From contig JAKSYS010000370.1 in assembly GCA_022925895.1 (NCBI GenBank), forward strand, positions 1-60,297: DNA of 60,297 bases, in the 5' to 3' direction. Origin of the DNA: Fragilaria crotonensis. Taxonomy: Eukaryota > Bacillariophyta > Fragilariophyceae > Fragilariales > Fragilariaceae. The notes beneath the pieces were generated by a model. That model was given only the letters and a program-made list of their open reading frames with translations. It was not told the origin of the DNA and did not search any database. This document shows positions 396 through 39,111 of the stretch, one piece after another; the stretch's first letter is position 1, and each line of letters starts with the position of its first letter. A program made the position numbers and the translations under genes.

Positions 396-2674
396 TTAAA
401 GTTTAAAGCTTAGGCGCTGGAGTTGGTGCATACCTCTGAGCACTGGTCCAATCGATTGTGTATCCAATGTTATCTGATAGCTTTCGTCCGTCTTGAACAA
501 TTCGTTCCGTCCTATACGTTGACAGCGAACTTTGAGAGTATACGGCCGTCGATGGACCTCCGATCGCGATGATATCTCGCAATTCATTCTGCGAACGCCA
601 CCTGATCCACTCATGATAATACCCATTTCCCATGGTTGAGACGATGTGGTATACTCCGATCGAATGTTGTTGATGGTGATGCTTTCGACTACTTCATCCG
701 GCTGTCCATTGTACACCAAGATGGACCCATGGTTGATGGCTTGATTCTTATTCGACCGAATGAACACACCTCGGTTTACCTTCACGTTGCTCACTCCGTA
801 ACTATCGATTGAGGGCTCGGCGGCAATATACAGTGCTGCGGCATCGGTATCTTCAGCGTAAAGATCGATCATGCTGATGTCTCTGCCACCCACAACGGAG
901 AAGGCTCGGCCCGAGCAACTAGACATGACCCTTGGCGATTGCAAAAACATGTTGTTGACCTGCACGCCCTGCTTCTTTTTGTGACAGGAACGACACACCA
1001 TCGGCACCCGAGTTGAATATTTGTGGTCGAAGGATGTTCCCGAAGCTTGATCCCTCTGTGACATATATGCCACCGGCACGAGTGTTTTTCACGATGACGC
1101 GATCAATAATGAAATCGTGACAGTTGCCCACGAAAATGCCAGCTGCTGCCGACCCTTCAATGGTCACGCCTCGTACCACAACGCCTCTGGAGTTCATCAA
1201 GCGCAGCTTCATTGATTCATATTGAGTCCATCTTTGTGTGTGGTGCTTTTCATTCCGAGGACGATGTTCTCGACGACCACTCTGTCGGCGTTGATCCAGA
1301 CTCCTGATCTAGCGTCGTTCGTCGCCAGAAGGCGACCACCTCCCTTGATGACGAGCGCCGGAACTCGAATCTGCACAATGTCGTTGTGAGCATAGGTCTT
1401 ACCAGAGGAAATCAGAATATTAGCTCCTGGAGGTGCTCGCGAGAATAATGCGTTCAAGGCGGCGGTGTCATCAGTCACGCCATCACCAACTGCGCCATAT
1501 TGCTCTGGGGTATAGCGTGGATACGCCTCCCCATATCCGATGAGATCTTTAAGGATTCGCCCATCTTTGATCAAGTGAATCGTGCGGTATGATGATAACG
1601 GAGATTGTGAGTAGAAAGCCTGAGATGGACCGCCGGTCATGTTCATATTTCGGATTTCGACCCAGAAAACACCGCCTGAACCATATGACGTAATCCCAAC
1701 TTCAAACGGTAGAGATTTGGTGGTATTGACTGATTGAACGTCGTTAATGGTGATGTTTCGAATCACTTCAGTGGTCCGACCATTGTAGATCATAATGGAG
1801 CCATGACTGGCTGCTAGATTCCTGCTTGAACGAACCAACGTGCCACCATTCACCGTCACGTTACTGACACTGTAGGTGTTCGTAGAATTTTCCGCCGAAA
1901 TGTACAGGGCGGCCATCTCGCTATCTTCAGCATAGATGTCATTCATGACAATGTCACGGGAACCCAGTATTGCGAACGCTAGACCTTTGTACCGTATCGA
2001 ACTTGTGGGGATTGCAAGAGTATATTGTTCACCTGGCCTCCGTCCTGTCTCGAGGACTGAATAACAATAGCGCTTTCGCCTGAGTTGAATGTTTGTGGTT
2101 GGAGAAGAGTCCTGCTGCTTGACTTTTCGCCGATGTAGATAGCACCAGCACGAGTGTTCCTCACGACGACCTTGTCCAGAATGAAATCGATGGCGTTTCC
2201 AACATGGATGCCCAAATTTGCCGACCCTTGAATCGTCACTCCTCGCACGACGACACCGCGACAGTTCATCAAGCGAAGCTTCATTGACTCATATGTATAC
2301 CACCTACCGGTAGTCGTGGCGCTTTTCATTTCAAGAATCAGGTCTTGCATGACGACGCGGTCAGCACTAATCCAGACCCCAGATCTGCCTTCATTGGTTG
2401 CAAGAAGGCGACCTCCACCGGTGATTTTAAGGTCTGGGACCCCTATCTGAATGATGTTGTTGTGGGCGTATGTTCGACCAGCTGGAATCAGTATTGTTGA
2501 ACCAGGAGGAGCTTGAGAGAAGGCTGAATTCAAAGCGACTGTGTTGTCCGTCACACCATCACCAACTGCGCCAAAGTTCTCCACTGAGAGAGTTTGTCCT
2601 GTTGCGAGACAAAGAAGTAGTGCGAGCGAGCAAGCGATGAGAAATCTAGATGAAGTATGCACGTAATCAAACAT
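396..2674 (-). pseudogene. Secreted beta-helix protein A, two tandem helix domains, frameshifted
   Basis: The start is at 2674, with a signal peptide ending near LATGQ. Domain 1 opens with the pectate_lyase_3-type motif NFGAVGDGVTDN and runs to about 1530. Domain 2 reopens with QYGAVGDGVTDD at about 1500 and runs to the end, where a short APTPAP tail replaces the long Pro-Thr tail of the plus-strand paralogues. The repeated V-x-I and N-x-I strands fit a right-handed parallel beta-helix of the cell surface or extracellular matrix; no substrate can be inferred. The frame breaks near 1970, 1215, 990 and 590, so no continuous protein is encoded as written. The nearest relative is copy B (9502-11807). 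It pairs head to head with copy D (start 3474). The breaks may be decay or assembly error. Confidence 0.8.
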
Positions 2675-3473
2675 GGTGGATGGGATTTTTGTGCTTTTTG
2701 CTGGATTGAAGCTGTGTCGAGGTTAATCGTTATTGTGAGAGTTTCCGTTCGTGTTAGATCGAGGATTGGTAGAGAGTACTCACAGTTCGTTGGAATACTC
2801 CGTGCTTAATACGCCAAAACATTTCGATGTACACGCAACGCATATGCATATGATGACAAACAATTTCATAAATTATTTAATACTTCAAGGTGTCCGCGGG
2901 TGAGGTGCTCGGTATTGAGCAGATTACGTAGCGACGCTCGATACTCTGGCCGTAGCACTCAAGCATTTCGTTAACTCCAGTTCAAAGTTCTTATGTACTC
3001 GAATGATTTAGGAGTACAATGTAACGCATAGCGTTCGAGATTACGCTCCAATAATTCAATTATGACTTGAAGTGTCTTCAGTCGAGGAGCTCAGTATTGA
3101 TGCGAATACTCTGAAGGAGTTTGATATCATATATAAGAATAATACACGACGAGGGGTTTAACATGGAACCGAACAATAAATCAAATATGTGGACGTTTTT
3201 GTCAACCTTAATACCTACTCTAGTAGAGCACGAAACGTGCTGTGTGTCTAAAACTCTCATTCACATCACGTAGGGATTGACAGTATTCCATGCTCAGACA
3301 CGTCGAGATTGCAGGAAAACAGTACAAGATTGATATCTGCTCGTTGACATTGTGCACCACATAGGTATATCCACGAAGATAAAGTCATTCGTGGTCAACC
3401 GCCTTAATTTTATTGACAATACGAGTCTCGCACGCGTCTTCGAACATAATCCACGAATTGAAATAATCAAATT
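2675..3473. promoter_or_regulatory. Divergent intergenic region between beta-helix copies A and D
   Basis: These 0.8 kb lie between the start codons of A (minus) and D (plus), so they must hold both promoters. The promoter layout shared by copies B, C, E and F is not clearly kept here: there is only a CAATCCAGCA-like stretch before A and a CCACGAATTG fragment about 15 bp before D. No other gene is apparent. Confidence 0.45.
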
Positions 3474-4780
3474 ATGATGTTCATCCCATGTACCTCTTCA
3501 TCGCGATTTCTCATTCTCTGTGCATTCGCTTTGCTCGCCGGAATCGCAACAGGACAAACCGTATCAGTTGATGCCTATGGGGCGGTCGGTGATGGTGTTA
3601 CGGATGATACCAACGCTCTGAACTTAGCCTTCGCTCTCGCTCCGCCTGGATCTACGATCCTGATTCCAGCAGGTCGAACCTATGTCCACACCGACATCGT
3701 CGAGATAATAGTTCCATCAGTACTCATCAAAGGAGGCGGTCGCCTTTTGGCGACCAACGAAGCAAGGTCAGGAGTCTGGATCAACGCTGACTATGTCGTC
3801 ATGGAAGGCATCGTGCTCGAAATGAAAAGCACCACGACACGGTGGATGGGATACGAACAAATGAAGCTGCGACTGATGAACTCTCGCGGCATCGTGGTGC
3901 GCGGGGTGACCATTGAAGGTGCTGCAGCTGCAGGCATCTACATCGGCAACACTCACGACTATCTCATCGATCGAGTAATCGTGAGAAACACTCGTTCTGA
4001 TGCCATTCATAACACAGAGGCATCAAGCTTTGGCACCATCATTCGACCAGACATATTCAACTCGGGAGATGATGGAGTTGCATTTGTGTCCTACAGGAGA
4101 GATGGATCGCAGGTCAACAACATGATATTGCAGTCTCCTAAGTTCCGATTGCAAAAGATTGGTCGAGGCTTCTCAGTCGTCGGTTCCCGAGACATCGTCA
4201 TGAATGATCTCTATGCCGAGGATAGTGACGCTGCCTCACTGTACGTTGGCTGTGAGCCATACTTTGATACCTTCGGTGTCAGCAACGTTCAAGTAAACGG
4301 TGGCTTGTTTTATCGGTCGAACAAGAATCAAGAGTGGGACCGCCAAGGCTCCGTCCACATTTTCAATGGTCGACCAGATGAAGTTATTCGTAACATCACC
4401 ATCAACAACATTCGATCTGTGTATACGAAAGGTAACCAACCGCACGAAGTTGGAATCAAGTCTTCAGGATCTGGCGGTGTTTTCGGTGTTGAATTGAGGG
4501 GACTTTACCATGTCTGGAGGTCCATCAAAAAGCATTTTACTCGGAATCTCCGGCGTCGTCGTATCGCACGGTTCAATGGGTGCAGGACGGGCGAGCCCTT
4601 AGTGATCAAGGAGCCTACGTGGGTGGCCTGCCGACAACGGCCACATCGGCGAAACCGACAAATCGTCCAACGACACGGGTACCAACAAAAAAGCCGACTG
4701 CAGCCAAGCCAACCAGACGTCCGACCCGCCGTCCCACCCGACGTCCAACACCCTCTCCAACCCTTTTTCGTGCAAAATAG
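3474..4780 (+). CDS. Secreted beta-helix protein D with Pro-Thr rich tail, one frameshift
   Basis: A signal peptide of about 27 residues (hydrophobic core FLILCAFALLAGIATG) is followed by YGAVGDGVTDD, the N-terminal motif of the pectate_lyase_3 beta-helix family, and about 330 residues of short V/I/N-rich strands. Residues 199-200 are a double Asp in SGDDGVAF, like the catalytic Asp pair of GH28 polygalacturonases, but the other GH28 motifs are absent, so enzyme activity is unproven. An extra G in the run at 4498-4501 shifts the frame. The true continuation lies in the next frame to the stop at 4780 and encodes a low-complexity tail of KPTRRPTRRPTRRPT type, probably an O-glycosylated or wall-associated stalk. 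Sister copies E and F carry the same tail. It is the divergent partner of A. Confidence 0.82.
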
Positions 4781-4869
4781 GGTCTTCAGTATTTGTTCAA
4801 ACCTTCGAACTTGGCTCCAGACAGCATGCCACTAGCAGTTAGCGATTGGCGATTCTCTTCTTTCATGTA

Positions 4870-5520
4870 CTGTATGCATACGAAATTAATCAGATACGAC
4901 CGTTTGATGTCGGTTATCTTTTTTTGAAGTTAGAAGTTGCGTCCTTGCGGCCGACACTGATTTCCACTCTCTACCGGTAGAGAGTAGAGGTTCCCGTTCT
5001 GCTACTTAGTACTCGAGTACTTCGTACCGTACGAGGGTCGTTCGATGTCCGCGGTGGAGGAAATCATACACCTAAAAGGTATGACTCTGAAAAGGTACGT
5101 AAATGGTATCAGGAAATGCAGTTATCCAATGTTAGTTATATTGAAACCACAACCATGAAGTATCAATAAGACAGGAATGTGTGTATCGCTTTACATAGGG
5201 CATTACGTAGGACATTACATAGTACTAATACTCGCGTACTGCATTACGTATTGCAATACATTGTACTCCGAGTACTAGTACCAGGTACAGTACAAGTACA
5301 TTACGTACATCACTACGTAATTCGGTACGCATGTGATTTCCGTAGTAAATTCAGTACAGTAGTACTCAATTTCATAGTACTAAGTACATTCCGTATTTAA
5401 TTCAGTAATACATTCCGTAGTACAGTAGTGCTTTTGACTCTAGCAGTACGGCCAGTACTTACAACTTGTACTCCAGAGTCCAGATACACTCTCAGCAGAG
5501 TATTTCCAGCAATTCACAAC
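4870..5520. other. GTAC-rich palindromic intergenic DNA
   Basis: No gene is seen. The stretch is packed with short self-complementary words built on GTAC or TAC...GTA, such as TACTAGTA, ACTCGAGT, TACCGGTA and TACTCCGAGTA. The same texture recurs at about 14.9, 29.5-30.1, 34.5-34.7, 37.0-37.2 and 59.3-59.5 kb. Confidence 0.6.
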
Positions 5521-9133: not shown

Positions 9134-9163
9134 GTTACTTCGACGTGCAAGCATTGTCGGATG

Positions 9164-10428
9164 TTTGTTATGCCTCGGCGTTTCGACACAGACTCTGCAA
9201 CGAGCTCCGTGCCCCTGAATGTACCTTGGGGTCAGATTTTTTGATACACGGCCAAAACGATACGAATGCTCTGACCTCTGAGTGCATAAACCAAATACAC
9301 AACATAAGGCGATGACACATTAACTTGGTCATACATACGATCTATTCTTATACACTGACAACTATTGTGCACAACAGGACTTTGTCGCCGTATCGTTGCC
9401 TCGAAATCTCAATAGTATTGCAGCATTGCAGTACTCCATTCTCAGGTGAGCTGTGAGGGTAGGATAAGACGATGTCTATGAACATATCACTCAGTGACTG
9501 CTCATTCTCGAGCACCTCGACGAACGTACAGCTGGCGACCAGCTCGAGAGACAGGCACAGGCGCCCGAGTTGGTGCATACGACGGAGCACTGGTCCACTC
9601 AACACTGTATCCAACCTTATCTGCCAGTCTTCGTCCATCTTGAACAATTCGCTCCGTCCTTAACGTTGACAAATCATTTTGAGCGTTGAGAACCAGTGAG
9701 GGACCTCCTACAGCGATTATGTCTCGCAATTCGATTCTCTTCACACCGCCCGACCCAGTCATGATAATCCCCATTTCCCATGGCTGTGAGTTTTTCGTAT
9801 TCTCTGCCCGAATGTTGTTGACGCTGATGTTTTCAATGACGTCATACGGCTGGCCATTGTAAACCATGATGGAACCATGGCCGATTGCTTGATTCTGGTT
9901 GGACCGAATGAGCACACCACCGTTTACCTTCACGTTGCTGACTCCATAGCTGTTGATTGATGGCTCGGCAGCAATATACAGTGCTGCGGCATCGGTATCC
10001 TCAGCGTAGATATCATTCATGATGATGTCTCGGCCACCCACAACAGAGAAGGCTCGACCCGAGGGCAAGACATGACCCTAGGCGATTGCAGGAACATCTT
10101 GCTGACTTGTACTGCGTGGCTTTTTGCGACAGAAATGCTACGCCGTCTCCACCGAGTTGAGTATCTGGGGTCGAAGAATGTTCCCGGAGCTTGACCCCAG
10201 TTATGTAAATACCAGAAGCGCGAGTGTTTCTGACCACGACGCGATCTATTGTGAAATCAACGCAGTTGCCCACGAAAATGCCAGCTGCTGCTGCACCTTC
10301 TATGGTCACGCCTCGCACAACAACGCCTCGGAGTTCATCAAGCGCAGCTTCATTTGCTCGTATGCCATCCAACGTTTCGTGGTGCTTTTCAATTCGAGGA
10401 CAATGTTGTCGACGACCACTCTGTCAGC
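9164..10428. repeat. Segmental duplication, copy 1 (with 27502-28796)
   Basis: This block matches 27502-28796 almost base for base, covering the 3' flank and the last helix domain of copy B and of copy C. Differences are an 18-bp stretch missing here near 9326, a few substitutions and several one-base gaps. Similarity to that frame ends at the GTCAGC at 10423-10428, where copy C switches to matching domain 1 of B. Confidence 0.85.
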
Positions 10429-11807
10429 GTTGATCCAGACTCCTGATCTGGCTTCATTCGTCGCCAGAAGGCGACCACCCCCTTGATGACGAGCGCTGGG
10501 ACTCGCATCGCCACAATGTCGTTGTGGGCATAGGTCTTACCCGAGGAAATCCGGATCGTAGCTCCTGGGGGTGCCTGCGAGAATAATGTGTTCAAGGCGA
10601 CGGTGTCATCAGTCACGCCATCACCAACTGCACCGTATTGCTCTGGGGTGAAGGTGGGATACGCCTCTCCATATCCTATGAGATCTCTTAGCATTCGTCC
10701 GTCTTTAATCCAGTGAAACGTGCGGTATGACGACAACGGAGCTTGAGAGTAAAATGCCTGTGATGGACCTCGGGTCATGTTCATGTTTCGGATTTCGACC
10801 CAGAAAACACCGCCTGAGCCAAACGACGCAATCCCAACTTCATACGGTAGAGATTTTGTGGTATTGACTGATTGAACGTCGCTAATGGTGATGTTTTGAA
10901 TCACTTCAGAAGTCCGACCATTGTAGATCATAATGGAGCCATGGGAGGCTGCTAGGTTCTTGCTTGAACGAACCAACCTACCACCATTCACCGTCACGTT
11001 ACTGACGCTGTAGGTATTCGTTGAACTCTCAGCCGAAATGTACAGGGCGGCAAGCTCGCTATCTTCAGCATAGATGTCATTCATGACAATGTCACGGGAA
11101 CCCAGTATTGCGTACGCTACACCTTTTGTACCGCGTCGAACTGCTGGGGATTGCAAGACAATATCGTTCACCTGGCCTCCGTCCTGTCTCGAGGACTGAA
11201 TAACAATGGCGCTATCGCCAGAGTTGAATGTTTGTGGTTGGAGAAGAGTCCCGTTGCTTGACTTTTCGGCAATGTATATAGCACCAGCACGAGTGTTCCT
11301 CACCACGACCTTGTCCAGAATGAAATTGTAGGTGTTTCCAACATGGATGCCCAAATTTGCCGACCCTTGAATCGTAACTCCTCGCACGACGACTCCGCGA
11401 CAGTTCATCAAGCGCAGCTTCATTGACTCATATGTATACCACCTACTCGTGGTGCTTTTCACTTTGAGAACAATGTTTTGCATGACGACACGGTCAGCAC
11501 TGATCCAGACTCCCGATCTGCCTTCATTGGTTGCAAGAAGGCGACCTCCACCGGTGACGATAAGGTCTGGGACCCCTATCTGAACGATGTTGTTGTGGGC
11601 GTATGTTCGACCTGCTGGAATCAGGATTGTTGACCCCGGAGGAGCTTGAGAGAAGGCTGAATTCAAGGCGACTGTGTCATCCGTCACACCATCTCCCACA
11701 GCTCCGAAGTTCTCCAGGTTGAGAATCTGTCCTGTTGCGCAACGGAGGATCAAAGCGAATGCGCATAGAATGAGCTGACGCGATGATACTATACTTGAGC
11801 CGAACAT
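9502..11807 (-). pseudogene. Secreted beta-helix protein B, two tandem helix domains, frameshifted
   Basis: It starts at 11807 with a signal peptide (MFGSSIVSSRQLILCAFALI...) and continues uninterrupted for about 450 residues. Domain 1 begins NFGAVGDGVTDD and domain 2 begins QYGAVGDGVTDD. The domain repeat unit is about 1,070 bp, about 357 codons. In domain 2 the frame is lost at the C-run 10478-10482 and again near 10330, 10195, 10150, 10121 and 10062. Compared with the near-identical copy C, each of these sites is one or two bases shorter, and most lie in a homopolymer. The last readable part (9502-10068) ends with a short APTRAPVP tail. The position of the GDD motif reads GGD. The divergent partner is E. 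Whether it is a real pseudogene or an assembly artefact is unresolved. Confidence 0.82.
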
Positions 11808-11922
11808 GATTGTTGGATTGTGTCAACGTTGTACTCGACTTTCTGCTCGATCTCTGTTTTATGAGATGTTATCGATTGAGTGGTGAAAATGTGATGCACA
11901 AACGCTTTAAGTTCGTGACTCG
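11808..11922 (-). promoter_or_regulatory. Conserved promoter of beta-helix gene B
   Basis: Read in gene direction it contains CGAGTCACGAACTT (about 105 bp before the ATG), then CTCATAAAAC (TATA-like, about 55 bp before), GAAAGTCGAG, and CAATCCAACAATC directly before the start. The same ordered words occur before C, E and F, with similar spacing. The functional role is inferred from this conservation only. Confidence 0.6.
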
Positions 11923-16890: not shown

Positions 16891-16893
16891 CCA

Positions 16894-21835: not shown

Positions 21836-21916
21836 TGAGTCAGCAGTGTCCTGAGCCCTCGCTCCGTACTAGGGCAGGGTCATCGGTTGTGTGAACGAGG
21901 CTTACTGGAGGATTGC

Positions 21917-24282: not shown

Positions 24283-24290
24283 GATTGCTG

Positions 24291-27060: not shown

Positions 27061-27501
27061 CTTGGATTTGAACATTGCGAGCTGTACGTGATGTGACGTC
27101 ATGGTCAAAAATGCTGAATGACAAAAATACATGCATTGTTTTTAGCTTGAGATTTTGTTTTATAACTCAACTACAAAACAATTCTAAGAAATTGCCTATG
27201 TAAACCATGAAACCTTTCAGTGTTCCAAGGAGAAAGGCCAAGTATGGAGTCCAATGGACATTGTTCAAGATAAGGCAAGGAATATCCGAGATCGGCGAAT
27301 GCGGGGTAATAACCCCTTCGGAGGATAGACATTAGAGGGCTCTTAACCTGGTGCAGATCTAGAGGTACGAAGCGCGAACGGAGTTGGTTAAGACCAAGGT
27401 CAAAGTCAATATAACTTTGCTTCTAAACTACGGGATCGTTTCTCGAGAATGAGCTTTTTTACGACTTCAGTCAGGGTCTGGACTCTGGACCAAGTGGTGT
27501 A

Positions 27502-28796
27502 CGATGTTTGCTATGCCTCGGCGTTTCGACACAGACTCTGCAACGAGCTCCATGCCCCTGAATGTACTGTACCTTGGGGTCAGATTTTGATACACGGCCA
27601 AAACGATACGAATGCTCTGACCTCTGAGTGCATAAACCAAATACACAACATAAGGCGATGGCACATTAATGCAAAACAAAAAGTTCCTTGGTCATACATA
27701 CGATCTATTCTTATACACTGACAACTATTGTGCACAACAGGACTTTGTCGCCGTATCGTTGCCTCGAAATCTCAATAGTATTGCAGCATTGCAGTACTCC
27801 ATTCTCAGGTGAGCTGTGAGGGTAGGATAAGACGATGTCTATGAACATATCACTCAGTGACTGCTCATTCTCGAGCACCTCGACGAACGTACAGCTGGCG
27901 ACCAGCTCGAGAGACAGGCACAGGCGGCCGAGTTGGTGCATACGACGGAGCACTGGTCCACTCAACACTGTATCCAACCTTATCTGCCAGTCTTCGTCCA
28001 TCTTGAACAATTCGCTCCGTCCTTAACATTGACAAATCATTTTGAGCGTTGAGAACCAGTGAGGGACCTCCTACAGCGATTATGTCTCGCAATTCGATTC
28101 TCTTCACACCGCCCGACCCAGTCATGATAATCCCCATTTCCCATGGCTGTGAGTTTTTCGTATTCTCCGCCCGAATGTTGTTGACGCTGATGTTTTCAAT
28201 GACGTCATACGGCTGGCCATTGTAAACCATGATGGAACCATGGCCGATTGCTTGATTCTGGTTGGACCGAATGAGCACACCACCGTTTACCTTCACGTTG
28301 CTGACTCCATAGCTGTTGATTGATGGCTCGGCAGCAATATACAGTGCTGCGGCATCGGTATCCTCAGCGTAGATATCGTTCATGATGATGTCTCGGCCAC
28401 CCACAACAGAGAAGGCTCGACCCGAGGGGCAAGACATGACCCTAGGCGATTGCAGGAACATCTTGCTGACTTGTACTGCGTGGCTTTTTTGCGACAGAAA
28501 TGCTACGCCGTCTCCACCCGAGTTGAGTACCTGGGGTCGAAGAATGTTCCCGGAGCTTGACCCCTCAGTTATGTAAATACCAGAAGCGCGAGTGTTTCTG
28601 ACCACGACGCGATCTATTGTGAAATCAACGCAGTTGCCCACGAAAATGCCAGCTGCTGCTGCACCTTCTATGGTCACGCCTCGCACAACAACGCCTCGGG
28701 AGTTCATCAAGCGCAGCTTCATTTGCTCGTATGCCATCCAACGTTTCGTGGTGCTTTTCAATTCGAGGACAATGTTGTCGACGACCACTCTGTCAG
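27502..28796. repeat. Segmental duplication, copy 2 (with 9164-10428)
   Basis: This is nearly identical to 9164-10428, including the non-coding 3' flank of the beta-helix gene. At 28793-28798 (GTCAGC) the match switches from domain 2 of copy B to domain 1 of copy B. Confidence 0.85.
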
Positions 28797-29106
28797 CACT
28801 GATCCAGACTCCCGATCCGCCTTCATTGGTTGCAAGAAGGCGACCTCCACCGGTGATTTTAAGGTCTGGGACCCCTATCTTAATGATGTTATTGTGGGCG
28901 TATGTTCGACCTGCTGGAATCAGGATTGTTGAACCAGGAGGAGCTTGAGCGAAGGCTGAATTCAAGGCGACGGTGTCATCCGTCACACCATCTCCCACAG
29001 CTCCGAAGTTCTCCAAGGTGAGAGTCTGTCCTGTTGCGCGACAGAGGAACAGAGCCAATGCGCATAGAATCAGCTGACGCGATGAAGCGATACTTGATCC
29101 GAACAT
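27865..29106 (-). CDS. Secreted beta-helix protein C, intact single-domain chimera
   Basis: This 413-residue protein is uninterrupted, the only such member of the family in the window. A signal peptide (SSRQLILCALALFLCRATG) is followed by NFGAVGDGVTDD, the helix and a short APTRPPVP tail ending in RRGARE. Residues up to about ISADRVV match domain 1 of copy B; from VVDNIVLELKSTT on it matches domain 2. It thus behaves as B with one 1,070-bp repeat unit removed. At the GDD position it reads SGGDGVAF, so a GH28-like Asp pair is absent. It is probably secreted to the cell surface; ligand or substrate is unknown. Its presumed divergent partner is F, now 8.6 kb away. Confidence 0.88.
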   Translation of the reverse strand: MFGSSIASSRQLILCALALFLCRATGQTLTLENFGAVGDGVTDDTVALNSAFAQAPPGSTILIPAGRTYAHNNIIKIGVPDLKITGGGRLLATNEGGSGVWISADRVVVDNIVLELKSTTKRWMAYEQMKLRLMNSRGVVVRGVTIEGAAAAGIFVGNCVDFTIDRVVVRNTRASGIYITEGSSSGNILRPQVLNSGGDGVAFLSQKSHAVQVSKMFLQSPRVMSCPSGRAFSVVGGRDIIMNDIYAEDTDAAALYIAAEPSINSYGVSNVKVNGGVLIRSNQNQAIGHGSIMVYNGQPYDVIENISVNNIRAENTKNSQPWEMGIIMTGSGGVKRIELRDIIAVGGPSLVLNAQNDLSMLRTERIVQDGRRLADKVGYSVEWTSAPSYAPTRPPVPVSRAGRQLYVRRGARE

Positions 29107-29231
29107 GATTGTTGGATTCTGTCAATCGTTTAATCGACTCCGTGCTCGATACTCGATACTAGTCTTATGATAAGTGTTTCGAATTAGTGATCGAAGAATG
29201 TGCTGCGTAAAAATCTGAAGTTCGTGACTCG
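29107..29231 (-). promoter_or_regulatory. Conserved promoter of beta-helix gene C
   Basis: In gene direction CGAGTCACGAACTTCAGATT lies about 115 bp before the ATG, followed by ATCATAAGAC, GGAGTCGA and AATCCAACAATC right before the start. The first element differs from that of F at only two positions, although F lies on the other strand and belongs to the other subfamily. Confidence 0.62.
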
Positions 29232-30733
29232 AAGAAACATATTCGAGGAGCTTAACTGTCCAAACTTCGTGTTTGAATTGTCACAGGGAGATGGGGTAAA
29301 GCATTCTTATCCACGCGCATCCGTACGCTGCTCTACGCCTCTCACTGAATCTCAGCTGATACGATTGGTTGAAACTCGGGCAAGCGATGGCACACGTGGC
29401 ATGACAAATTGACACTCAAGTATGCGCAGACCTTTGAACTCCATGTTAGGACTGCATCGTTGCACTGTATCGAGCGCATTCCGGAAGCTGTATTGCACCA
29501 TACTCCAAGGCTACTCGAAAACTTTCTACTACTACTACTAGTAGAGTAGTTCCAATGCTCTCGCAGAACTTGTAGTCAAGTACTACTAGTACTTGTACAC
29601 TGTTCGTATGAAAAAGAAATATATGATAGTACCATATACCATAGTACTAGGTACTAGACTACTACTACTACTACTACAGTAGTAGTAGTATGGTAGCATA
29701 GAAGAAGTGCTGCTGCATGCTGGTTCTCTCAAGCTTTGCGAGTATCCCTGGAGGAAGCGGCTTTGCGAGATGTCCTTCGTTCCAGATAATCATGCAGCTA
29801 CGATCTACGATGAATGGACCCTTTTAGAAGCACGGCCATCTGGAGTAGCCATAGGTTTATATGTTAACATATACTCGAGTACGGAGTATCGCCCTCTACA
29901 TCTCGTCTACTCTAGCAAGCACTCCTGTATAGTTGAGGGTATGTGCCTGATTATGGTACCAAGTGGCGCTGCATTTTACTCTCATGCTCTCGTAGAGTAG
30001 AGAGCTAAAACACTCCGCCATCTTGTATGGACAGGTTTATGCGTACCTGGTACTCGAGTATTACATTACTCGATTCAGCTCGATGTATTTTGTGCAAACA
30101 GTAGAATACGTGGTACTCATTACTCTAGCTACCAGTAGTGGTAGAGTACAATGCAAACATTTTGTACCTCTTACTCAGTCTGCAACAGGGTCTTCAAAGT
30201 ACTACAGAATACACCCTACTCTGTCTTCATTAGCGATAGAATTTCTCAAGGTTGGGTCAGAACACTCGTTATTCTCTCGTCCTCCGTGACCACCTCCAAA
30301 ATCTGGAATTCAAAAGTTCGTGCTACCTTTCTACTAGCCAACTGTCTGGCTCTGATCAATATGCCCAACTTTCCGCTGACCGTCAAAAGATGGGCTAAAC
30401 TGAGTCCTATGGAACCGTTTCACTCGTTTTAGTAAGACATAAACAGTGAGCATTTAGCCCAGCACCACTGCACCATTGTGCGATGAATATAGTGCTACTA
30501 GCTTCGACACAAGTGGAACAACCAGGAACGGACAACCATGTGCTTTTACCAGTACGAAGGAGAACAACCTCGGTGGCAAAGAGACAACTAAACGGCACAT
30601 GAACAATTGGCTTCTGCTATAAGACTGCCCCGGCGGAAGGAAGAAATTGGTAGAGAGAGCGTAATCGGCCCGCCCAGAATACTCCTCCTACAGTTGACAT
30701 CATGGCGATACTCACTCCTACTACTTGATATCA
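29232..30733. other. Intergenic, triplet runs and GTAC palindromes
   Basis: No gene is supported. Inverted CTA/TAG triplet runs occur at about 29530-29552 and 29661-29692, with many GTAC-type palindromes to about 30180. The left end of the Harbinger-like element should lie near 30430-30730, but no terminal repeat could be fixed. Confidence 0.45.
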
Positions 30734-31763
30734 CTAGTACCTGCATTGAAAAGGCCTTTCTCCAGTTTCAAATGCAAGTTGTGTGCAAACAGCCACAGCG
30801 GCAAATGCAATCTTGTGCTTATGACGCACGTGACGCCACCGATGTTGCATACTTCCCCATTGCTTGAGACGTCGATTGACTGTCTCGTGTCGAGCCCTTG
30901 CTCTTGTTTTTGCCAAGCGGTCTACGCGGGAAACACAGTCATCAGGAGTACGAGCTTTGACATTGTGTCCACGATAACCCCTGTCTGCTTCAACCATTTC
31001 GTCATCACCGAGAAGGTGCATCAACCTTGATTTGAAAATTTTCACATCCGGCCACTTTCCGCATTTGTAGGGTCCATTGACCCAGACAATATCACCTGTT
31101 TGAATGCAAATAGCCATTTCGTATCGCAAACCGGGTCCCCGAAATTTGTGACTGAACCACTGACTGTCGAACGGGGTCGGCTCTCAATCGGGAAGTCAAC
31201 CCCATCAACTGTAACCTTGCAGGTCTTGCCCTGTCAGATCGAAACCGGTTCTCCCATCGAATCTTGCGTAGGCCGTAAGTAGAAGAACAACTTTGATATC
31301 AATTTTGCTTGGAACAGAAAACTTACCACGTCATTCTTCTTTTTGCAATGATCATCAAAACAATCCATGTCCAAAATCGATATGTTTTCCGACTCACCGC
31401 AGCAATTGTCGACAAAACATCCTCTGTTGCATATATCTTCAGAAACATAAGTGCCCAGAGAAGATGTCTTGGGAGAACATTGTGAACTAAAAGGAACTTT
31501 TGCATTTCTCCCATATCATAAAGCAGACTGTTGGACTGACGCCAAAATGGGATCGAAGTCCCTGTCAGGGACGCCGGCCCCAGGTTAGCGTTGCTCTTCA
31601 AGAGACGCCTTGCTTCAGAGATAAAGGTGTCTGGAGTTGTAGTTCTTTCCATGATTCCTGTCCTTTCCTGGCTGGCCAATGCAGTGGGTATGTTGACTGT
31701 TGATTGCGGATTCTGATTTTCCGGTGTGATGGAACATGCATGCCACCACGCAGTCACGCACAA
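30734..31763 (-). pseudogene. PIF/Harbinger-like DDE transposase, one intron, frameshifted
   Basis: The 5' part (31323-31763) encodes the helical N-terminal region with LPRHLLWALMFLKIYATED, usual in diatom Harbinger-like proteins. A GTAAGT donor follows directly near 31320 with a CAAG acceptor near 31265. After it come VTVDGVDFPI (first Asp) and, in shifted frames, PFDSQWFSHKFRGPGLRYE. The 3' part (30734-31129) has IVWVNGPYKCGKWPD, VEADRGYRG (second Asp) and RHETVNRRLKQW (Glu). All three catalytic residues of a DDE_Tnp_4 nuclease are therefore present, but at least two indels interrupt the frame near 31180-31250. It is divergent from the gene at 32705, as in two-gene Harbinger elements. The exact start is uncertain. 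Confidence 0.75.
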
Positions 31764-32035
31764 CTATCATAGGAGATTGTCGAAGTAACCGGGTATGAGA
31801 TTTTTTAGCTCCACTGATGTTCTTGAACTGTGAACAACACTGTTCTTATTTGGATCTATGTTAATCATTGATGTTTATGTGTATAAAGTATGACTCTCAT
31901 GCATGAAGAATAATCAATACTGGATAAACCCTGGTTGTCAATGCGGCGGGTGATATCTTGAAGGGCGGCTTTCATATGCGTTGGCATCACACGTATGTAC
32001 ATGCATTTACAACCCAACTTGCACATTGGTAATAC

Positions 32036-32220
32036 GCAGTTGTACGCAGTCATACGCAGGACTGCGCAGGCATGCGCAGCCATGCGCAGCCATACGCAGG
32101 CACGCTGAGGTGTAGACAGTATCTTTTCTACATGCGGTGTGTCCCTACGTAAGGCTGCGCAGGGATGCGTACGGCTGCGTATGGCTGCGTACGGCTGCGT
32201 ATTGCGGCGTAGCTACTACT
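32036..32220. repeat. Inverted pair of 10-bp tandem repeat arrays
   Basis: Roughly 32038-32105 contains six to seven units of type ACGCAGSCAT in register every 10 bases. About 32150-32215 contains the reverse complement type, ATGGCTGCGT, also every 10 bases. The two arrays are separated by about 45 bp and lie in the spacer between the divergent Harbinger-like genes. A 10-base period puts every unit on the same face of the helix. Confidence 0.8.
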
Positions 32221-32704
32221 GCGTATGTCAAACAAATGATTATGGTTCCCGCGGACAACGTCGTATGCCGAAGCATAGGGCCACCGAAGTCTATGTAAAA
32301 AACATTGTATCGGTGTCGGACATTTTAGTATCGAAAGACAACCCTTCCATCAGGAAGTATCATTTATCAAATGTCCGTTGCCATGGAATATGATATGGAC
32401 TCGAGAATCAATTCTGTTCGGTGTCATTCATCTAGACCTACGCAGCCGCCATGAAGCAATGAAATGGAGCCAGCAATCTGATAGAATATGATTCACACTT
32501 CAAAATGTTGTGACAACCTTCAACCTGCTTTCACCTTCCACCCCACTATGCACCATACGTAGCGCCATGGGACTCCGATGACTGCACGACTCATTAGCAG
32601 TCGGAGTTGCCGCTACGAGGTTTGAGTACCTGATTCAACGACAAGTTTGAGGAAAACCATGTCCCGGTACTTCGAGAATGATTATCTCACTTTCTCATTT
32701 TATA

Positions 32705-34260
32705 ATGCCACGTTGGACTGTCAACGGAGAAGACGCTGCCGCCCTTTTTGGTGCCATCCACCGAGGCTTGATTGACCCAAACGGAGGAGAGGAGGAGATT
32801 GCTCTTGCAATAACAGAGTGGCTTCGTTCCAATCCAAGCTTAGAAAGGAAGTACCCAGGACCTAATTTTCGAAACAATTTCGGGCGGAATTTTCGAAGAG
32901 TGTTGACCAGGTACACAAAGTGGCGGAACAGCCCAGGTACGTAAATATCATTCTTGGACATCAAAGTTTTTGCCGCCGACAAATCTATACTCAGACACTG
33001 GTTGTCATGACATAGCTGGAGGAGGTACCGTGCCACTGCAGTTTTTGGCCCTTGCAAACGTTGACCTTCCAGCACGAAACGAAGACAGGGTGCGCGGACA
33101 CGGCGAACGGCCTGGTAGTGACCACGGGCAAGATTCTGAGGACAACGACCTTTCATTGGCAAGCATCGGCGACAGAGAAGACGAGGAGCAGGAATCCCTG
33201 GGTGACAACGAAGGTGACAACAACAGTACTGGTACTAATCATAGTGACATATTGGTAAGTGGAATTGTTGTTTGCGTCTGTTGAGGTATTGCAAAAAGCA
33301 ATCATCAGCACTGACATTTGTTTTCTTTATTCTACAGGACCTCAACAACCTCCAGATTTCTGCCACCAGTACTGTAGCAAAGATGTTCATCGACTCATTT
33401 CCTGGGCCTAATTTTGTAACCGAGAGCTTGAATGGTGGCTTCATTCAGGTAACACAAAAATCTCTCGGAATCCTTGTGTACCTTCAGTCTGGGGTGGATG
33501 TTTCGTCCATTGAACACAAGATCACCGTTGTCTCTAAGAAATATGCAAAGCTTTCTCTCACTGTGAAGCAGCATGAACACATGATGAATCCATTGCTGAT
33601 CACACCGATTCAGTCGAACTTTCAACCTGTTATCAGCTGCAAGCGGCTTTACCTACAAGCCAGGCTACGTCGTGGTAGTAACATCATCAAGGGTGAGAAA
33701 ATGTTCGCTGGGGACTTCCAAGATGGGTTTGTTCAGCCATCGGGTCAGAATTGTGAAGGAGAGTGTGAGTATCGGGCTGTAAATAGCAGCGTCTCGCCAT
33801 TCAGGATTGCAAACGTTGGAAGTTCCAATGGTAACCATTTGCAGGGTGTGGTCCTTGAGACCTACCTTTTGTACAAATTGGAAGAAGGTACCATAGGTGC
33901 CCTTCAGGCTCCAGAGTACAGAATGCCACCGCAGGTTCAATCGCCACCACCAGCAGGTCGTGTTGGCCGGACTCAGCTCCTCATGGTACTACCAGTACTA
34001 GTGCACGACGCCGAGGAGAGGATGATGATGACAGGAAGCCAGCGCCAAGAGAGACTAGGAAGCCAGTGCCACGAGACACCACCACTTCCTCCCGTTCCCA
34101 GTTTGATCCTTCTGCTGACGCAGGGGTTGCTAGGAGGCAGGAGCATGTGGTCAGCACCGTCATCAACATGGAGACTGATGATGATGATTATGAAGATGCT
34201 GTTGAGGAGGGGTCGCCTGGCAAGAGGCGCAAGTTCTACAACCAGCACCTCTCGTACTAG
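32705..34260 (+). CDS. Harbinger-associated partner protein, three exons, one frameshift
   Basis: Exons are 32705-32936, 32995-33254 and 33338-34260. The introns are 58 and 83 bp, with GTACGT and GTAAGT donors and CTCAG and CTACAG acceptors, and the phases match. The N-terminus (MPRWTVNGEDAAALFGAI, then GLIDPNGG and NFRNNFGRNFRRVL) looks like a Myb/SANT-like DNA-binding helical module. An acidic linker follows in exon 2. Exon 3 has a conserved-looking core (VTESLNGGFIQVTQKSLGI, IEHKITVVSKKY, KQHEHMMNPLLI) and an acidic end with a basic GKRRK nuclear signal. One G is missing near 33985, and the true tail lies in the next frame to 34260. By position it is the DNA-binding partner of the divergent transposase. 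The core fold is not one I can name. Confidence 0.65.
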
Positions 34261-34979
34261 TTCCAGTGACCCCCATCATGTATGTTCGTGTTGTAGTAAC
34301 TGCTATAAAGACGTGGTTATTCGAGATTCGAGATTGCGTAGTGCTTGTTCAATACTCTCTACACACCCTCATCTATTGCTACAAGCAGAGGAGGAGTATC
34401 ATTAGAGTATATGTTTTAATTCACTCTACTACTAGGAGATGTCCGCCTGATGCCTTTCCTACAAACGAGCGTTATCAAAGCTGCAACATGAACTCCAACA
34501 AAGGAAATTTCTCTGAAACGCCACTCTACCATGAACAGCGTCGAGTCCTACTACTGGTACTACTACCGTAGTACCAGAGCACGGGATTGAGAGTATGACG
34601 TACTACTTGTTGTTCTAGTAGCAGTATCTAGTAGTGTACTCCGAGTACTGGAGTACGACTACCGGTAGTACATCATGCGAAACGCGAAACCGTGTTCATG
34701 GTTGCACTACTCACTACTCCAGCTATTAGGTCTACTAGTAGCTGAGGTTCGTGCACGAATGTACGGTGCCACAGCGCCACGACGTTGTTGTATTAGAATG
34801 GAGTTCGAAGTCCTACGCGTACATAGATGTTGCTCTGTCATGCCACGTGTGCCATCGCTTGCTACCCTAGAAATCCATTCAGAGTCTGAGAGAAGTGTCG
34901 ATCAGCGAACGGATGCGCAGGCGCAAGAATGGCTTACCCCACCTCCCAGTCATTGGTCATTTATGATCTTATAACCCAC
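34261..34979. other. Intergenic, GTAC-rich
   Basis: No gene is supported. Dense GTAC-type palindromes (ACTACTAG, GTACTCCGAGTAC, TACCGGTA) fill 34540-34740. The right end of the Harbinger-like element should lie within this stretch. Confidence 0.4.
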
Positions 34980-35943
34980 GGGTTTTGTCAGATGCTATCT
35001 GACAACACAGAAACCACCTATACAGTGCACTGTAGTAGAGTAGCCTACTATCTTTGAAGGTACGGGAACGCACGTCTACATATGCATATCATCCACCGCT
35101 TGCTCATGTTTCTGAGTAATCTAGTACTAGTACCAGGTACATGTAGACTGAAGTATGATACGTATGCATACCTGACACAGGCTTGATACTGCCCTATACA
35201 CGCAATACTTAAATGCTGCAAGATTTTACCATTTGTAGATCGTCGCCATAGTTTGGCCAATTAAATACTCAGAGTACATTTCAGGAAGGACATCGGCAGT
35301 TTTCCTTCAAGTACCGGTAATTTACTTAGGGATTCCGAAATCAAAAGGCAGTACTCCAAGTACTCACATTGATTCATTGTATTTATTTGGCCAATCAAAT
35401 ATCAATCTGAACCTGAAAGGCAGAATATCATTTTTAATTAGATCGATTTGCTAAATCAAATATATGCTATCATAGTACAAAAGGCATTATATTAGAATAA
35501 CGAATAATATCAAATTCAGATACATACACACTGAATCTATTAAGTAAGCAATTTGATTCGACCAAATGGGTTGTCCGAAACAAGAAGGCAGTGCATCATT
35601 CTTACTTACATTGATTTGGCCAATCGTATGATCTTCTGGAACAAAAGTCATTAAATCAATTATTATAGTTTGATGGGCAATTGCAATACTTAAAGACTGG
35701 CTTCTTAAGTATCCAACCGATTAGCCCGCTCGGGCAATTTTCTTACCGTAAACAGAAGTTGTCATACAAAATCTGACAAACCGGTAAAGATCAGAGATCC
35801 GCAGCAACACTCCTGTACCTGGTCATACATTATCTACAGAGGTACAAGAACCATGATCAACTGGATCCCAAGGTTTTGTCAGAATTCATCTGACAACCAT
35901 CTGACAGACCGCTAGAAAACCCCGCATGCTATCTGACAAACCC
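34980..35943. mobile_element. Putative non-autonomous element with GGGTTTTGTCAGAT ends
   Basis: The left end 34980-34993 reads GGGTTTTGTCAGAT, and the right end 35931-35943 is ATCTGACAAACCC, its near reverse complement. Further TGTCAGAT/ATCTGACA palindromes lie just inside both ends (34993-35002 and 35877-35907). The interior is AT-rich and contains diverged tandem units with TTGGCCAATC and AAAGGCAG words (35260-35690). It has no coding capacity. No clear target duplication was found, so the borders are provisional. Confidence 0.45.
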
Positions 35944-36013
35944 TGGGGATCTATGCATACTTACATCGACTTGTTATAATATCGATTATGTGGTACAAGT
36001 ATGTGGTATGTGG

Positions 36014-36511
36014 CAGGGATTGGAAAAATAATACTGTCCCACGTTGAATCTGGTATTACAGTCCTCCAGTAGGTAGAATGGTATTGCGCTGTTGCACTGG
36101 GAGGTATTTTGGTATTGAAAAATCCTTCAGTCCGGTATGAATATAACTTCTCTTCATTTTTCGAGTCGCAGTACTTACTCGGTTCCATTGGTTTCGTCCG
36201 GTAGGTATAATGGTAGTAAAAACACTACAGTAACAGTAAACTTCAGTACTACAGTACAGAAATGAACCGTAAACACACTGATGCAGGACAGAACATTTAT
36301 GGAAATTCCGACTGGTATTCCCGAACACCGGAATTCAAAATACTACCGACTAAACTCAGTAGAAAATAACCAAGGGTCTTGGTTACTGGTTGGTATATTG
36401 CAACTCGCAGGTAACCAGTTATTGGGCATTTTAAAAATCACAGTAGTGGTACAGTATAATACCATCGGTATTTGGTTACCGGTACCGGTGGTTATTTACT
36501 TCCAATCCCTG
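36014..36511. mobile_element. hAT-type MITE, 498 bp, with 8-bp target duplication
   Basis: The ends are inverted repeats beginning CAGGGATTGGAA (36014-36025 and its reverse complement 36500-36511). Both sides are flanked by the identical 8-mer GTATGTGG (36006-36013 and 36512-36519), the target duplication length of hAT elements. There is no reading frame for a transposase. The tips resemble those of the complete hAT element at 44731-47397 (CAGGGGTTGGAA), so the same transposase type could move it. Confidence 0.88.
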
Positions 36512-36519
36512 GTATGTGG

Positions 36520-37585
36520 TATGTGTGACAAAAACGTCGTTCGAGTACTTTCTTAACTCATGAATGAGACAACGTACAGAAAATGTGACTTGTGAAGATT
36601 CAACTCTCCTGCATTTCTACGTACAAATCCCCTTCGGTATAATGATCATGATTTAATTCGTGACTGCGAAGCTAGAGATGGGTCCGAGATCTGAGAGGCT
36701 GACTGCTGACTGCGAACTGCGATTCAGAGATCCAGGCATAAGTGTGTGAACACTGTAGCAAATGGGCATTTTTTTTCGTCATTTTCGCTTATATCGTTGA
36801 AATATCGAAAGTGCAGATACCCACCATATCCACCTGCAAGGTGGGCAAATTCTCTCTAAAATCAGATTACATCTCGTTCGTTCTACAGACAAATAATACC
36901 AATCAAAGAGGTGCGTTACCCAAGAGTTTTACCAGGCCTTCCTGATGAAGAAACTCGAGACTGCAAGTACACCAGGTACTTGTATCAGAAACCAGTTCTA
37001 CTTGCATTTCTGTACTGGATTACCTTCGAGCACTCCCGGTAGATAGTGTATTACATTTCACTCTCAATTGTACAGCCTACAAACGGCGAAAGTATTCCAG
37101 TGTTACCGGTAGTAGTACAACTACAATGCAATTGTTCTGAGTGTATCCTACACATTTCGGTCTCAGAGCTTAAATTGCGCCTGCTATGTACTGTATGCGA
37201 ACTACTCGAGTAATAACTTATCCCCAGAATGACCGACCTGCCGTTTGTTTCTGCCATAAATGTACTACACTCGAGGGTGAAAATATCCTGGGAACGATCG
37301 AAAGGACTTCCATAATTATGCGGAGATCGCAAACTAGACTTGTGGAGTACCGGTAGTCCTTGACCGAAAGTGGGTCGAGCATTTTCACATGGTGTGTACT
37401 ATACCACGTGACCTACATATACCGGCAATATTCGAACAATATTTTTGTCTTGAATACTACGGTAGAGTTGTGACGACAAAAAACTATTCAATTCATGCAA
37501 GCCCGACGCAAATGACTTAGACACTTTAAACACGAAACTACCGGTAGACGGTTAAGCCCTTGCGTCGTATATATATCATTGCATG
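36520..37585. other. Intergenic, no supported gene
   Basis: Short open frames only. GTAC-type palindromes and TACCGGTA words occur around 36960-37560. The conserved promoter of copy F begins at about 37586. Confidence 0.5.
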
Positions 37586-37701
37586 TCCGAATCACGAATT
37601 TCAGATTTTTAAGCACAGAATTCTTCGGCCATCACTCAAACGGCCTCACTCATAAAACTAATACCTCTCACAAAGTCGAAACAACCTTTAAACAATCCAA
37701 C
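37586..37701 (+). promoter_or_regulatory. Conserved promoter of beta-helix gene F
   Basis: TCCGAATCACGAATTTCAGA starts at 37586, about 115 bp before the ATG. CTCATAAAAC follows at about 37650, CAAAGTCGAA at about 37671, and ACAATCCAAC ends directly before the ATG at 37702. The order and spacing match those of B, C and E. Confidence 0.62.
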
Positions 37702-39111
37702 ATGATGCTCCAATCAAGTACCACGTCATGGCGCCTTCTGCTTCTCTGCACAGTCGCTTTGCTCATCGGGCTAGCCACAGGTCAGTCCGTATCGGTGGAT
37801 ACCTACGGTGCTGTTGGTGATGGTGTGACGGATGATACCGACGCTCTGAACTTAGCCTTCTCCCTCGCTCCTCCTGGATCAACACTGCTGATTCCAGCAG
37901 GTCGAACCTATGCCCACTCCGACATCGTTGAGATAACAGTTCCTTCGTTACTAATCAAAGGAGGTGGTCGCCTTTTGGCGACAAACGAAGCAAGGTCTGG
38001 AGTCTGGATCAACGCTGACAGAGTCATCATGGATGACATCGTGCTTGAAATGAAGAGCACCACAACACGGTGGATGGGATACGAGCAAATGAAGCTGCGA
38101 CTGATGAACTCCCGCGGGATCGTGGTGCGAGGGTGACCATCGAAGGTGCTGCAGCTGCAGGCATCTACGTCGGCAACACCCGACTATCTCATTGACCGTG
38201 TGACTGTAAGAAACACTCGATCTGATGCCATTCACAACACAGAGGCATCAAGTTTTGGAACTATCGTCCGACCAGGCATATTCAACTCGGGAGATGATGG
38301 GGTAGCATTTGTGTCCTACAGGAGGGATGGATCGCAGGTCAACAACATGGTATTGCAGTCACCCAAGTTCCGATTGCAAAAGATTGGTCGAGGCTTCTCA
38401 GTCGTCGGTTCCCGTGACATCGTCATGAATGATCTCTATGCCGAGGATAGTGACGCCGCCTCACTGTACGTTGGGAGCGAGCCATATTTTGATACCTTCG
38501 GTGTCAGCAACGTACAAGTAAATGGAGGCTTGTTTTATCGGTCAAACAAGAATCAAGAGTGGGACCGCCAAGGCTCCGTCCACATTTTCAATGGTCGACC
38601 AGATGAAGTTATTCGTAACATCAATATCAACAACATTCGATCCGTGAATACAATAGGTAACCAACCACACGAAGTTGGTATCCAGTCTTCAGGATCTGGC
38701 GGAGTTTTCGGTGTTGTCTTGCGGGACATGACCATGTCTGGAGGTCCATCAAAGGCGTTTTACTCCGAATCTCCGTCGTCGTCGTATCGCACGCTTCAAT
38801 GGGTACAGAATGGGCAAGCTCTAAGCGATCAAGGTTCATTCGTGCTTGGTCCACTGACAACTCCTCCGTCTGCTGCGCGGACTAATTCGCCCATCAATGC
38901 ACCAACGAATCGACCAACAAGTCGACCAACAAAGCGACCAACAAGTCGACTATCGAGTGCACCAACCAACGCTGCCACGGGACCATCCACAAATGGTCGA
39001 TTCGTCGCGCCCACACGTTCACCGACCGCACGGCCGACGACGTGCACCAACAAGGAGGGTTCCAACCAAAGCCAAACAAGTCGAAAACCTGTTCCTCAGA
39101 GCCCCGAATAA
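37702..39111 (+). pseudogene. Secreted beta-helix protein F with Pro-Thr rich tail, frameshifted
   Basis: The start is the ATG at 37702 (MMLQSSTTSWRLLLLCTVALL), giving a standard signal peptide. Upstream in-frame codons to 37579 overlap the promoter and are unlikely to be translated. The helix begins YGAVGDGVTDD. One G is missing at about 38131 and two bases near 38180, so a stop appears at 38134 while the original frame resumes after 38180. SGDDGVAF is intact at about 38287-38307. The tail, of NRPTSRPTKRPTSR type, runs from about 38885. Small deletions near 39041 and after alter its last residues compared with E. F is 8.6 kb from C, the minus-strand gene it should pair with. Confidence 0.82.

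Follow-up and report, generated by a model that had tools for sequence, protein, structure and literature searches.

The diatom Fragilaria crotonensis carries, on a 60,297-nucleotide contig (JAKSYS010000370.1, here C303 and called the window) of an assembly of 62.1 Mb in 881 contigs, six genes for putatively secreted beta-helix proteins arranged in three head-to-head pairs, A/D, B/E and C/F, the first member of each lying on the minus strand and the second on the plus strand. The plus-strand genes (D-type) have a single beta-helix domain, and the minus-strand genes (A-type) typically have two in tandem. Three aspartates that serve in several families of inverting glycoside hydrolases are retained in the D-type proteins, and two of the three are lost in each A-type domain. 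To judge from sequence and modelling, one gene of each pair probably encodes a glycan hydrolase that is active and bears a cationic tail, and the other a tandem pseudo-enzyme. The original prediction for this region recognized the three pairs, now measured to have spacers of 799, 893 and 8,593 bp, and proposed that a divergent two-gene unit had been copied as a whole; it missed the doubled domain, a fourth pair, the other allele and the loss of catalytic residues.

Organization and alleles of the array

The beta-helix domain is recognized by the Pfam profile PF12708 (Pect-lyase_RHGA_epim), with scores of 39.6-57.6 bits against a cut-off of 27 for the helix-start open reading frames (ORFs) of A-E, the five genes whose start was scanned. 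Gene A (412-2674, minus strand) and gene B (9505-11807, minus strand) each contain two tandem domains, A1 and A2, which lie about 1.07 kb apart in repeat and tblastn maps and are about 66% alike in DNA; A1 and A2 occupy approximately 2674-1530 and 1520-412 in gene A, and 11807-10660 and 10658-9505 in gene B. Gene C (27865-29106, minus strand) has one domain, as do the plus-strand genes D (3474-4835), E (12705-14119) and F (37702-39111), giving eight beta-helix domains in six genes.

Read in reverse, positions 219.8-256.7 kb of another contig, C548, are the counterpart of the window, which represents the second haplotype. Over the comparison, which covers the window up to 44.2 kb, identity is 98.6% at 9153-29021, 96.9% at 61-5050 and 97.7% at 36510-44000. 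C548 carries four pairs, P1 (C/F of the window), P2 (B/E), P3 (A/D) and P4, the last lying outside the window, whose start falls inside the array. The predicted count of six paralogues thus holds for the genes of the window, but A and B are each two-domain and a fourth pair is present on C548. In all pairs, four on C548 and three on C303, the orientation is minus/plus or its mirror image.

On C548 all four D-type genes are open, over 434-474 amino acids; their C-terminal tails, 55-95 residues long, contain 14-17 lysines plus arginines and 0-2 acidic residues. The C548 allele of D is open over 434 amino acids and that of F over 474, both with a cationic Pro/Thr tail, and gene E has a Pro/Thr/Lys/Arg tail. 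An A-type gene is likewise represented by a long frame: that of P3 on C548 is open from its methionine over 755 amino acids. A hydrophobic stretch resembling a signal peptide was found, reading the sequence by eye, at all three starts examined (one D-type, gene C and one A-type).

The pairs probably arose by copying of a divergent unit

A DNA tree of 21 rows comprises three clades, A1, A2 and D. As the original prediction had held, minus and plus members are separate subfamilies, the Pro/Thr tail (read on C548) belonging to the plus members. Each clade splits as ((P1,P2),(P3,P4)), so that the A1, A2 and D trees agree at the level of pairs. Support in the D clade is 88/85 for the (P1,P2) fork and 100/99 for the (P3,P4) fork; exceptions at the tips are A1 of P3 from the window, which groups with P4 of C548, and A1 of P2 from C548, which groups with P1.

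This arrangement is best read as the result of copying a divergent two-gene unit, a reading that is mostly supported. It is preferred because tandem duplication of single genes cannot give strict minus/plus alternation through four pairs, and independent tandem duplication of each gene type was rejected as the main route on the same ground. Alternation is a stronger argument than the trees, because two further four-tip trees agree by chance 1 time in 9. What the proposal of wholesale copying gains from the alternation and from the shared split of all three domain trees is offset in part by spacers that are barely alignable (see below) and by unequal synonymous divergence (dS) of partners: between P1 and P2, dS is 0.25 for D, 0.12 for A1 and 0.008 for A2. 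The corresponding P3/P4 values are 0.17, 0.13 and 0.05, and across the deep split among the C548 copies dS is 0.33-0.44 for D, 0.35-0.46 for A1 and 0.50-0.55 for A2.

The original prediction had named unequal duplication times of plus and minus members as a ground for rejecting it, and this is in part what the dS values show, but gene conversion is taken as the better explanation. In a sliding comparison on C548, similarity between the minus-strand genes of P1 and P2 runs at 87-97% up to column 750 and at 98-100% from there to the gene end, and the 3' flank of gene B in the window is 99% identical to P1 as against 89-92% to its own allele. These abrupt steps in identity inside minus-strand genes show gene conversion in the A-type genes. 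Conversion can account for the apparent youth of A2, the unequal dS and the poor alignment of the spacers. That the gene types multiplied independently and that conversion between neighbours made their trees match is a very unlikely reading; the unequal dS of the partners, the clear conversion steps and the poorly conserved between-pair spacers would suit it, yet tandem duplication offers no means of producing strict alternation, and the promoter elements follow the same division of P1/P2 from P3/P4.

Among paralogues the ratio of nonsynonymous to synonymous divergence (dN/dS) ranges over 0.11-0.19 in D and 0.19-0.30 in A1, and across the deep split it is 0.19-0.23 for A2, values that show purifying selection on all three. 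A1 of gene A compared with its own P3 allele gives 0.54, to which frame errors may add noise.

Spacers and promoter elements

The divergent spacers, whose ends were set within a few bases of the gene starts, are mostly about 1 kb or less: in addition to P3 (2675-3473) and P2 (11808-12704) of the window, lengths of 805, 892 and 852 bp were measured, and the P1 spacer is 1,461 bp on C548 and exceeds all others in the window. Allelic spacers are 98-99% identical (780 of 795 positions for P3 and 878 of 887 for P2). Between pairs they hardly align, with 474 of 743 positions identical for P3/P4 as against 470 of 756 for P2/P4. Two of the comparisons, P3/P4 (z 7.7) and P1/P2 (z 13.3), nonetheless exceed shuffled sequences. 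The copied sequence has thus not been preserved in the spacers, and what persists sits near the gene starts.

In P1 both promoters mirror each other in a 40-base repeat that is 85% alike. In P1 and P2 the element CGARTCACGAAYTT precedes each of the two gene starts by about 90-125 bases; in the window it is found upstream of gene C (29218-29231, minus strand) and of gene F (37588-37601, plus strand), and the mirrored promoter elements of P2 are at 11909-11922 (minus strand) and 12604-12617 (plus strand). All four P1 and P2 promoters carry it on C548, as do all four on C303, and the four window matches at no more than one mismatch compare with a mean of 0.11 in shuffled sequence. P3 and P4 lack a match to it and carry another element, present in the P3 spacer at 2890-2916 and 3072-3098. 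Both motifs were derived from these spacers, so a count is unaffected by their selection only where it concerns the rest of the genome: of 13 exact CGARTCACGAAYTT sites in 62 Mb, 9 lie in the array, 3 in copies of one repeat and 1 singly, the same pattern read backwards has no genome-wide site, and all five genome-wide matches of the other element fall in P3/P4 spacers. The common promoter elements suggest that the members of a pair are under joint control.

A one-domain allele beside a transposon-filled spacer

Gene C follows A1 of P1 and then A2, the switch falling inside a common GCTGAC; the deletion removes about 1,065 bases, from a point in one domain to the matching point in the other, and leaves a frame of 413 amino acids open. 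Over its first 387 bases gene C is 99.7% identical to P1 of C548, and across 280 codons of A2 there are no differences. By this junction gene C is a one-domain allele produced by a deletion of about 1.07 kb, and the chimeric protein is predicted to form a full helix with good model confidence (pLDDT 86.2).

The spacer between C and F holds, in order, a DNA transposon of about 5.7 kb (29287-34946) with inverted ends, a MITE-like element (34976-35948) with short inverted ends, and a 0.5-kb repeat (36013-36514) that is 96% alike to C548:249794-250295. All three are absent from the allelic P1 spacer of C548, and both CGARTCACGAAYTT copies of P1 survive beside them. The transposon ends, of about 170 bp, are 75-76% alike, and a CAG target duplication flanks the element (29284-29286 and 34947-34949). 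Full or partial copies occur on C498, C339, C259, C246 and C215, the duplication being AAG in the C259 copy and imperfect in the C339 copy. A three-base target duplication with inverted ends is a feature of PIF/Harbinger elements. No transposase family matched at E<=1 in five ORFs of the window or four of a sister copy, and the Harbinger label fits from target duplication and ends only and is not proven. The suggestion that the third unit had been opened by a Harbinger-like element and MITEs is thus correct as to the inserts, but it applies to one haplotype and the identity of the element is unproven.

A third contig, C215, aligns to 30966-42018 of the window at 98.4%. In a three-way alignment of 5.3 kb with 5,341 gap-free columns, private substitutions number 3 in the window, 4 in C215 and 51 in C548; private deletions of one or two bases number 3, 11 and 1, respectively, and seven one-base gaps are common to C548 and C215. 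C215 and the window are one haplotype in the compared 5.3 kb. C215 as a third haplotype was rejected, there being only seven private substitutions between it and the window in these columns and C403-like DNA being joined to it at the transposon. C215 leaves the array haplotype at position 25775, exactly at the transposon end, and the DNA beyond, to the left of the transposon, is 96% alike to C403; this junction is either a misjoin at a repeat or a rearrangement.

The comparison bears on the reading frames of the window, which are broken not only in the third unit but in A, B, D, E and F: near 4500 in the tail of D, near 13376 in E and near 38130-38180 in F. One of the two breaks in F is also found in C215 and so is not private to the window. 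Many of the breaks look like residual long-read indel or assembly error, which is suspected because small indels outnumber substitutions between the window and C215. That all window frameshifts mark pseudogenes was mostly rejected on the three-contig comparison, with the exception of the A-type genes, three of four of which are broken on C548. At positions 12705-12707, the start of gene E, the window reads ATA and the C548 allele has a start ATG.

The one-domain state of C, together with the frameshifts, might be ascribed to a poorly polished haplotype contig. The excess of small indels speaks for this, gene C is covered by no second contig, and the joining of C215 at the same transposon to C403-allelic DNA means that misjoins may exist in the assembly. 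A deletion joining matching points of domains about 66% alike with the frame kept open would, however, be hard for an assembler to create, the flanks are 98.6% identical to C548 over 19.9 kb, and the chimera is modelled well. Assembly error is unlikely to account for gene C and the frameshifts together, although it is probably right for many of the frameshifts.

Putative catalytic residues and fold

The aspartate triad is Asp-Asp-Asp in all four D-type rows and in all 23 bacterial rows of the alignment (two pairs of which are identical). A1 reads Gly-(Asp/Glu)-Ser in four of four rows, with Glu at the second site in one, and A2 reads (Ser/Gly)-(Gly/Ala)-Asp in both rows that cover the site, a third ending before it at a frame break. 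The first aspartate is missing from both domains, and a further one from each: the third from A1, the second from A2. The pieces of the window genes agree with this pattern, the triad being intact in D, E and F. A family profile of 13 rows, built from window pieces and five bacterial proteins, matches the GH87 enzyme Agl-KA over profile positions 3-336 (E 3.9e-10), and the triad falls on its Asp-(23)-Asp-Asp.

In the report on Agl-KA (PMC6814745), the alanine mutants of D1067, D1090 and D1091 kept 0.09-3.12% of activity after 18 h, the three aspartates are described as common to GH28, GH49 and GH87, and two of them hold a calcium ion. A GH110 study (PMC7939477) gives the same spacing for D321, D344 and D345. 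Because the triad is kept in D and lost in A1 and A2, the D-type looks active, and the A-type appears to be a doubled pseudo-enzyme or on its way out.

The D model is a right-handed beta-helix of high confidence (pLDDT 89.7), and the structures that match it best (Z 29-34, many within one Z unit of each other) belong for the most part to polysaccharide enzymes and phage tailspikes. GH87 Agl-KA of Bacillus circulans (PDB 5zru) shares the fold and the Asp-(23)-Asp-Asp retained in the D-type, but identity in structural alignment is 18-19% (5zru, 7c7d, 6k0m and its mutants). Pfam CatAgl_D2 (PF22816) gives 14.4 bits for D, 15.8 for C and 13.9 for part of F against a cut-off of 27, and the other 7 of 10 window ORFs have no match to it. 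GH87 also has a galactose-binding-like domain before the helix, whereas here the helix directly follows the hydrophobic start in both models. The GH28 polygalacturonase ADPG2 of Arabidopsis (PDB 7b8b) has the same fold (Z 33.5); Glyco_hydro_28 (PF00295) has no match at E<=1 in the 10 window ORFs. The mannuronan C5-epimerases AlgE4 and AlgE6 and the alginate epimerase/lyase 8ja4 are alike in fold (Z 33-34 over 281-283 residues), but their sequence match is confined to profile positions 5-42.

These comparisons bear on two other functional readings. It is doubtful that both types are structural or adhesive surface proteins in which the D triad serves merely to bind calcium or glycan. In favour of this reading, the structural matches include the adhesin PfbA (Z 31.8), a cationic Pro/Thr tail would be apt for attachment to the wall, and two of the Agl-KA aspartates hold calcium, as noted above; against it, the presence of the triad at exact spacing in all D-type and bacterial rows and its loss in both A domains are expected if it is catalytic in one partner. 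Nor is the A-type likely to be an enzyme of another reaction type, a lyase or epimerase with other catalytic residues, a proposal we consider quite improbable. The structures closest to the D model do include an alginate epimerase/lyase and the lyase RbmB (Z about 34), and in deep comparisons A1 and A2 have dN/dS of about 0.2-0.3. Reading the alignment revealed no alternative catalytic set (no further search was made), however, and the loss of two triad aspartates per A domain fits relaxed catalysis better.

Relatives outside the array

Two peptide patterns, run against 84,980 prokaryote species, yielded at least 592 candidate stretches and at least 59 loci. Among the matches listed, the strongest relatives are five loci of Klenkia, Geodermatophilus and Modestobacter, all Geodermatophilaceae, with 36-40% identity over nearly the whole domain (E 5e-61 to 1e-81) and an intact triad. 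The other loci listed mostly match the first part of the domain, a few weak ones reaching further (e.g., residues 29-315 at 24%, E 8e-7, in L030). Within Geodermatophilaceae, the family of the genome from which the query L013 was taken, 18 of 112 genomes are positive, 10 of them with at least two matches. In a sample of the phylum, 1 of 396 evenly drawn genomes matched at E<=1e-15, and this was the source genome of the L013 query itself. A further 29 genomes, picked from the 54 other loci, included 18 with a match at E<=1e-5, the best being a Burkholderiales bin (32% over residues 31-276) and Paenibacillus (23% over 29-321).

The Geodermatophilaceae proteins resemble those of the diatom in the near-full domain match and the triad but have a low-complexity part before the helix, where the diatom D-type has a tail after it. 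Geodermatophilus pulveris (L014:1531-4071) has two almost identical tandem beta-helix domains and is thus also two-domain; both keep the triad, unlike diatom A1 and A2. The two-domain Geodermatophilus relative reaches PF00295, at 27.4 bits against 22.9. The two Geodermatophilaceae loci that were read contain no divergent active/inactive pair, and in both an acyltransferase-3 gene lies near the helix gene. Acyltransferase-3 genes are often found in polysaccharide loci.

In a protein tree a branch with full support separates the diatom rows from the others; this tree and the bacterial relatives would fit transfer, in either direction, with eukaryotes sampled as this diatom only. A viral origin was rejected: in an alignment scan of viral contigs, none of the best 80 of 164 stretches extends beyond residue 266 of 413. 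A single-protein scan found no viral relatives, and none of 41 records from a phage tblastn search covers 80% of the query. NCBIfam matches are far under cut-off, and PHROGs matches lie mostly on the helix start. Literature searches for such pairs or genes in diatoms, at the level of listings of open-licence papers, turned up no description of the arrangement.

A model for the paired genes

We propose that the window shows one haplotype of an array in which divergent units are repeated in tandem, each coding for a secreted D-type inverting hydrolase and a two-domain A-type protein that does not cut, a proposal to which we give an even chance of being right. The D-type would be a secreted beta-helix protein with the three aspartates of a GH28/GH49/GH87/GH110-type inverting glycoside hydrolase, and the strong positive charge of its Pro/Thr tail could anchor it to a wall matrix that is acidic and sulphated. 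The A-type, two fused copies of the domain with two of three aspartates lost in each, would be expected to bind glycan without cutting it. The unit may have begun with an inverted duplication of one gene, after which the minus-strand copy fused to a second domain and the whole unit was copied to four; gene conversion would then rewrite the coding parts while the spacers drift, and the common promoter elements would place both genes under joint control.

As to substrate, the mannan of diatom walls is described in a review (PMC4584364) as 3-linked, sulphated and bearing glucuronic acid, with its anomeric linkage unsettled, and this 3-linked mannan is a possible candidate. A more specific scenario, tentative and rather unlikely as a whole, is that a helix enzyme akin to that of one of the actinobacterial polysaccharide loci became a diatom module in which a hydrolase and a double pseudo-enzyme, acting as glycan receptor, guide or decoy, take part in the remodelling of acidic wall mannan, in four copies with two promoter types.

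Several observations weigh against the model of an active enzyme paired with a maintained pseudo-enzyme. The unequal P1/P2 divergence of partners, the near-unalignable spacers between pairs and the confinement of each promoter element to two of the four pairs have been described above. In the protein tree the grouping of D against A1+A2 has support of only 86/80, and two inner (P1,P2) forks are weak (86/78 and 80/45). The top structural matches include lyases and epimerases, and the triad alone does not prove hydrolase activity. Shallow dN/dS values for A2 are high (0.31-0.94), from few changes. Finally, the A-type gene is open throughout in one of four pairs on C548, those of P1, P2 and P4 stopping after 341, 557 and 503 amino acids, and the A2 break of P2 (gene B) is at the same position in both haplotypes.

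This last point is the reason for grading the model lower: most A-type frames are broken on C548 too, and it may be that these genes no longer function and are in decay. That they are mostly pseudogenes, once useful and now carried along with the D-type genes, would agree with the early stops in three of four set against four of four open D-type genes, with the P2 break of both haplotypes and with the loss of a domain in gene C. We nevertheless regard decay as unlikely, in view of the open frames of P3 (755 amino acids) and C (413 amino acids), the deep dN/dS of A1 and A2 (about 0.2-0.3) and the frequency of small indel errors in parts of the assembly.

If the model of paired active and inactive forms is right, linked versions of one secreted glycan-enzyme fold have been kept through unit duplication, and the array offers concrete candidates for the reshaping of diatom wall polysaccharides, with a clear prediction for each partner. 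What deserves following up is the asymmetry between active and inactive forms, together with the split allele. The heterozygous strain would be a natural experiment, opposing a P1 spacer of 1.5 kb to one of 8.6 kb filled by transposons and a two-domain to a one-domain partner, and allele-specific expression at P1 could reveal whether closeness is needed for joint control.

Other features of the region and the assembly

Remains of a LINE-like retrotransposon lie between E and C (16132-25439, minus strand) in both haplotypes, with a reverse transcriptase match (1e-5) just below cut-off. An ORF of 526 amino acids (45304-46884) has a weak hAT dimerisation match of 19 bits against a cut-off of 21.4. 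At 51651-57980 a Copia-type element contains an RVT_2 domain (1e-40) and two identical 460-base stretches (51651-52110 and 57521-57980), which suggests a recent insertion. The ATP-grasp gene region flanking the array has a further counterpart, 70-79% similar, at C548:340156-341446. Elsewhere in the assembly, 18 of the 19 matches listed for silicon transporters (PF03842), which mark the organism as a diatom, are above cut-off, and C97:29749-33762 encodes three tandem silicon-transporter domains within one open frame of 1,456 amino acids.

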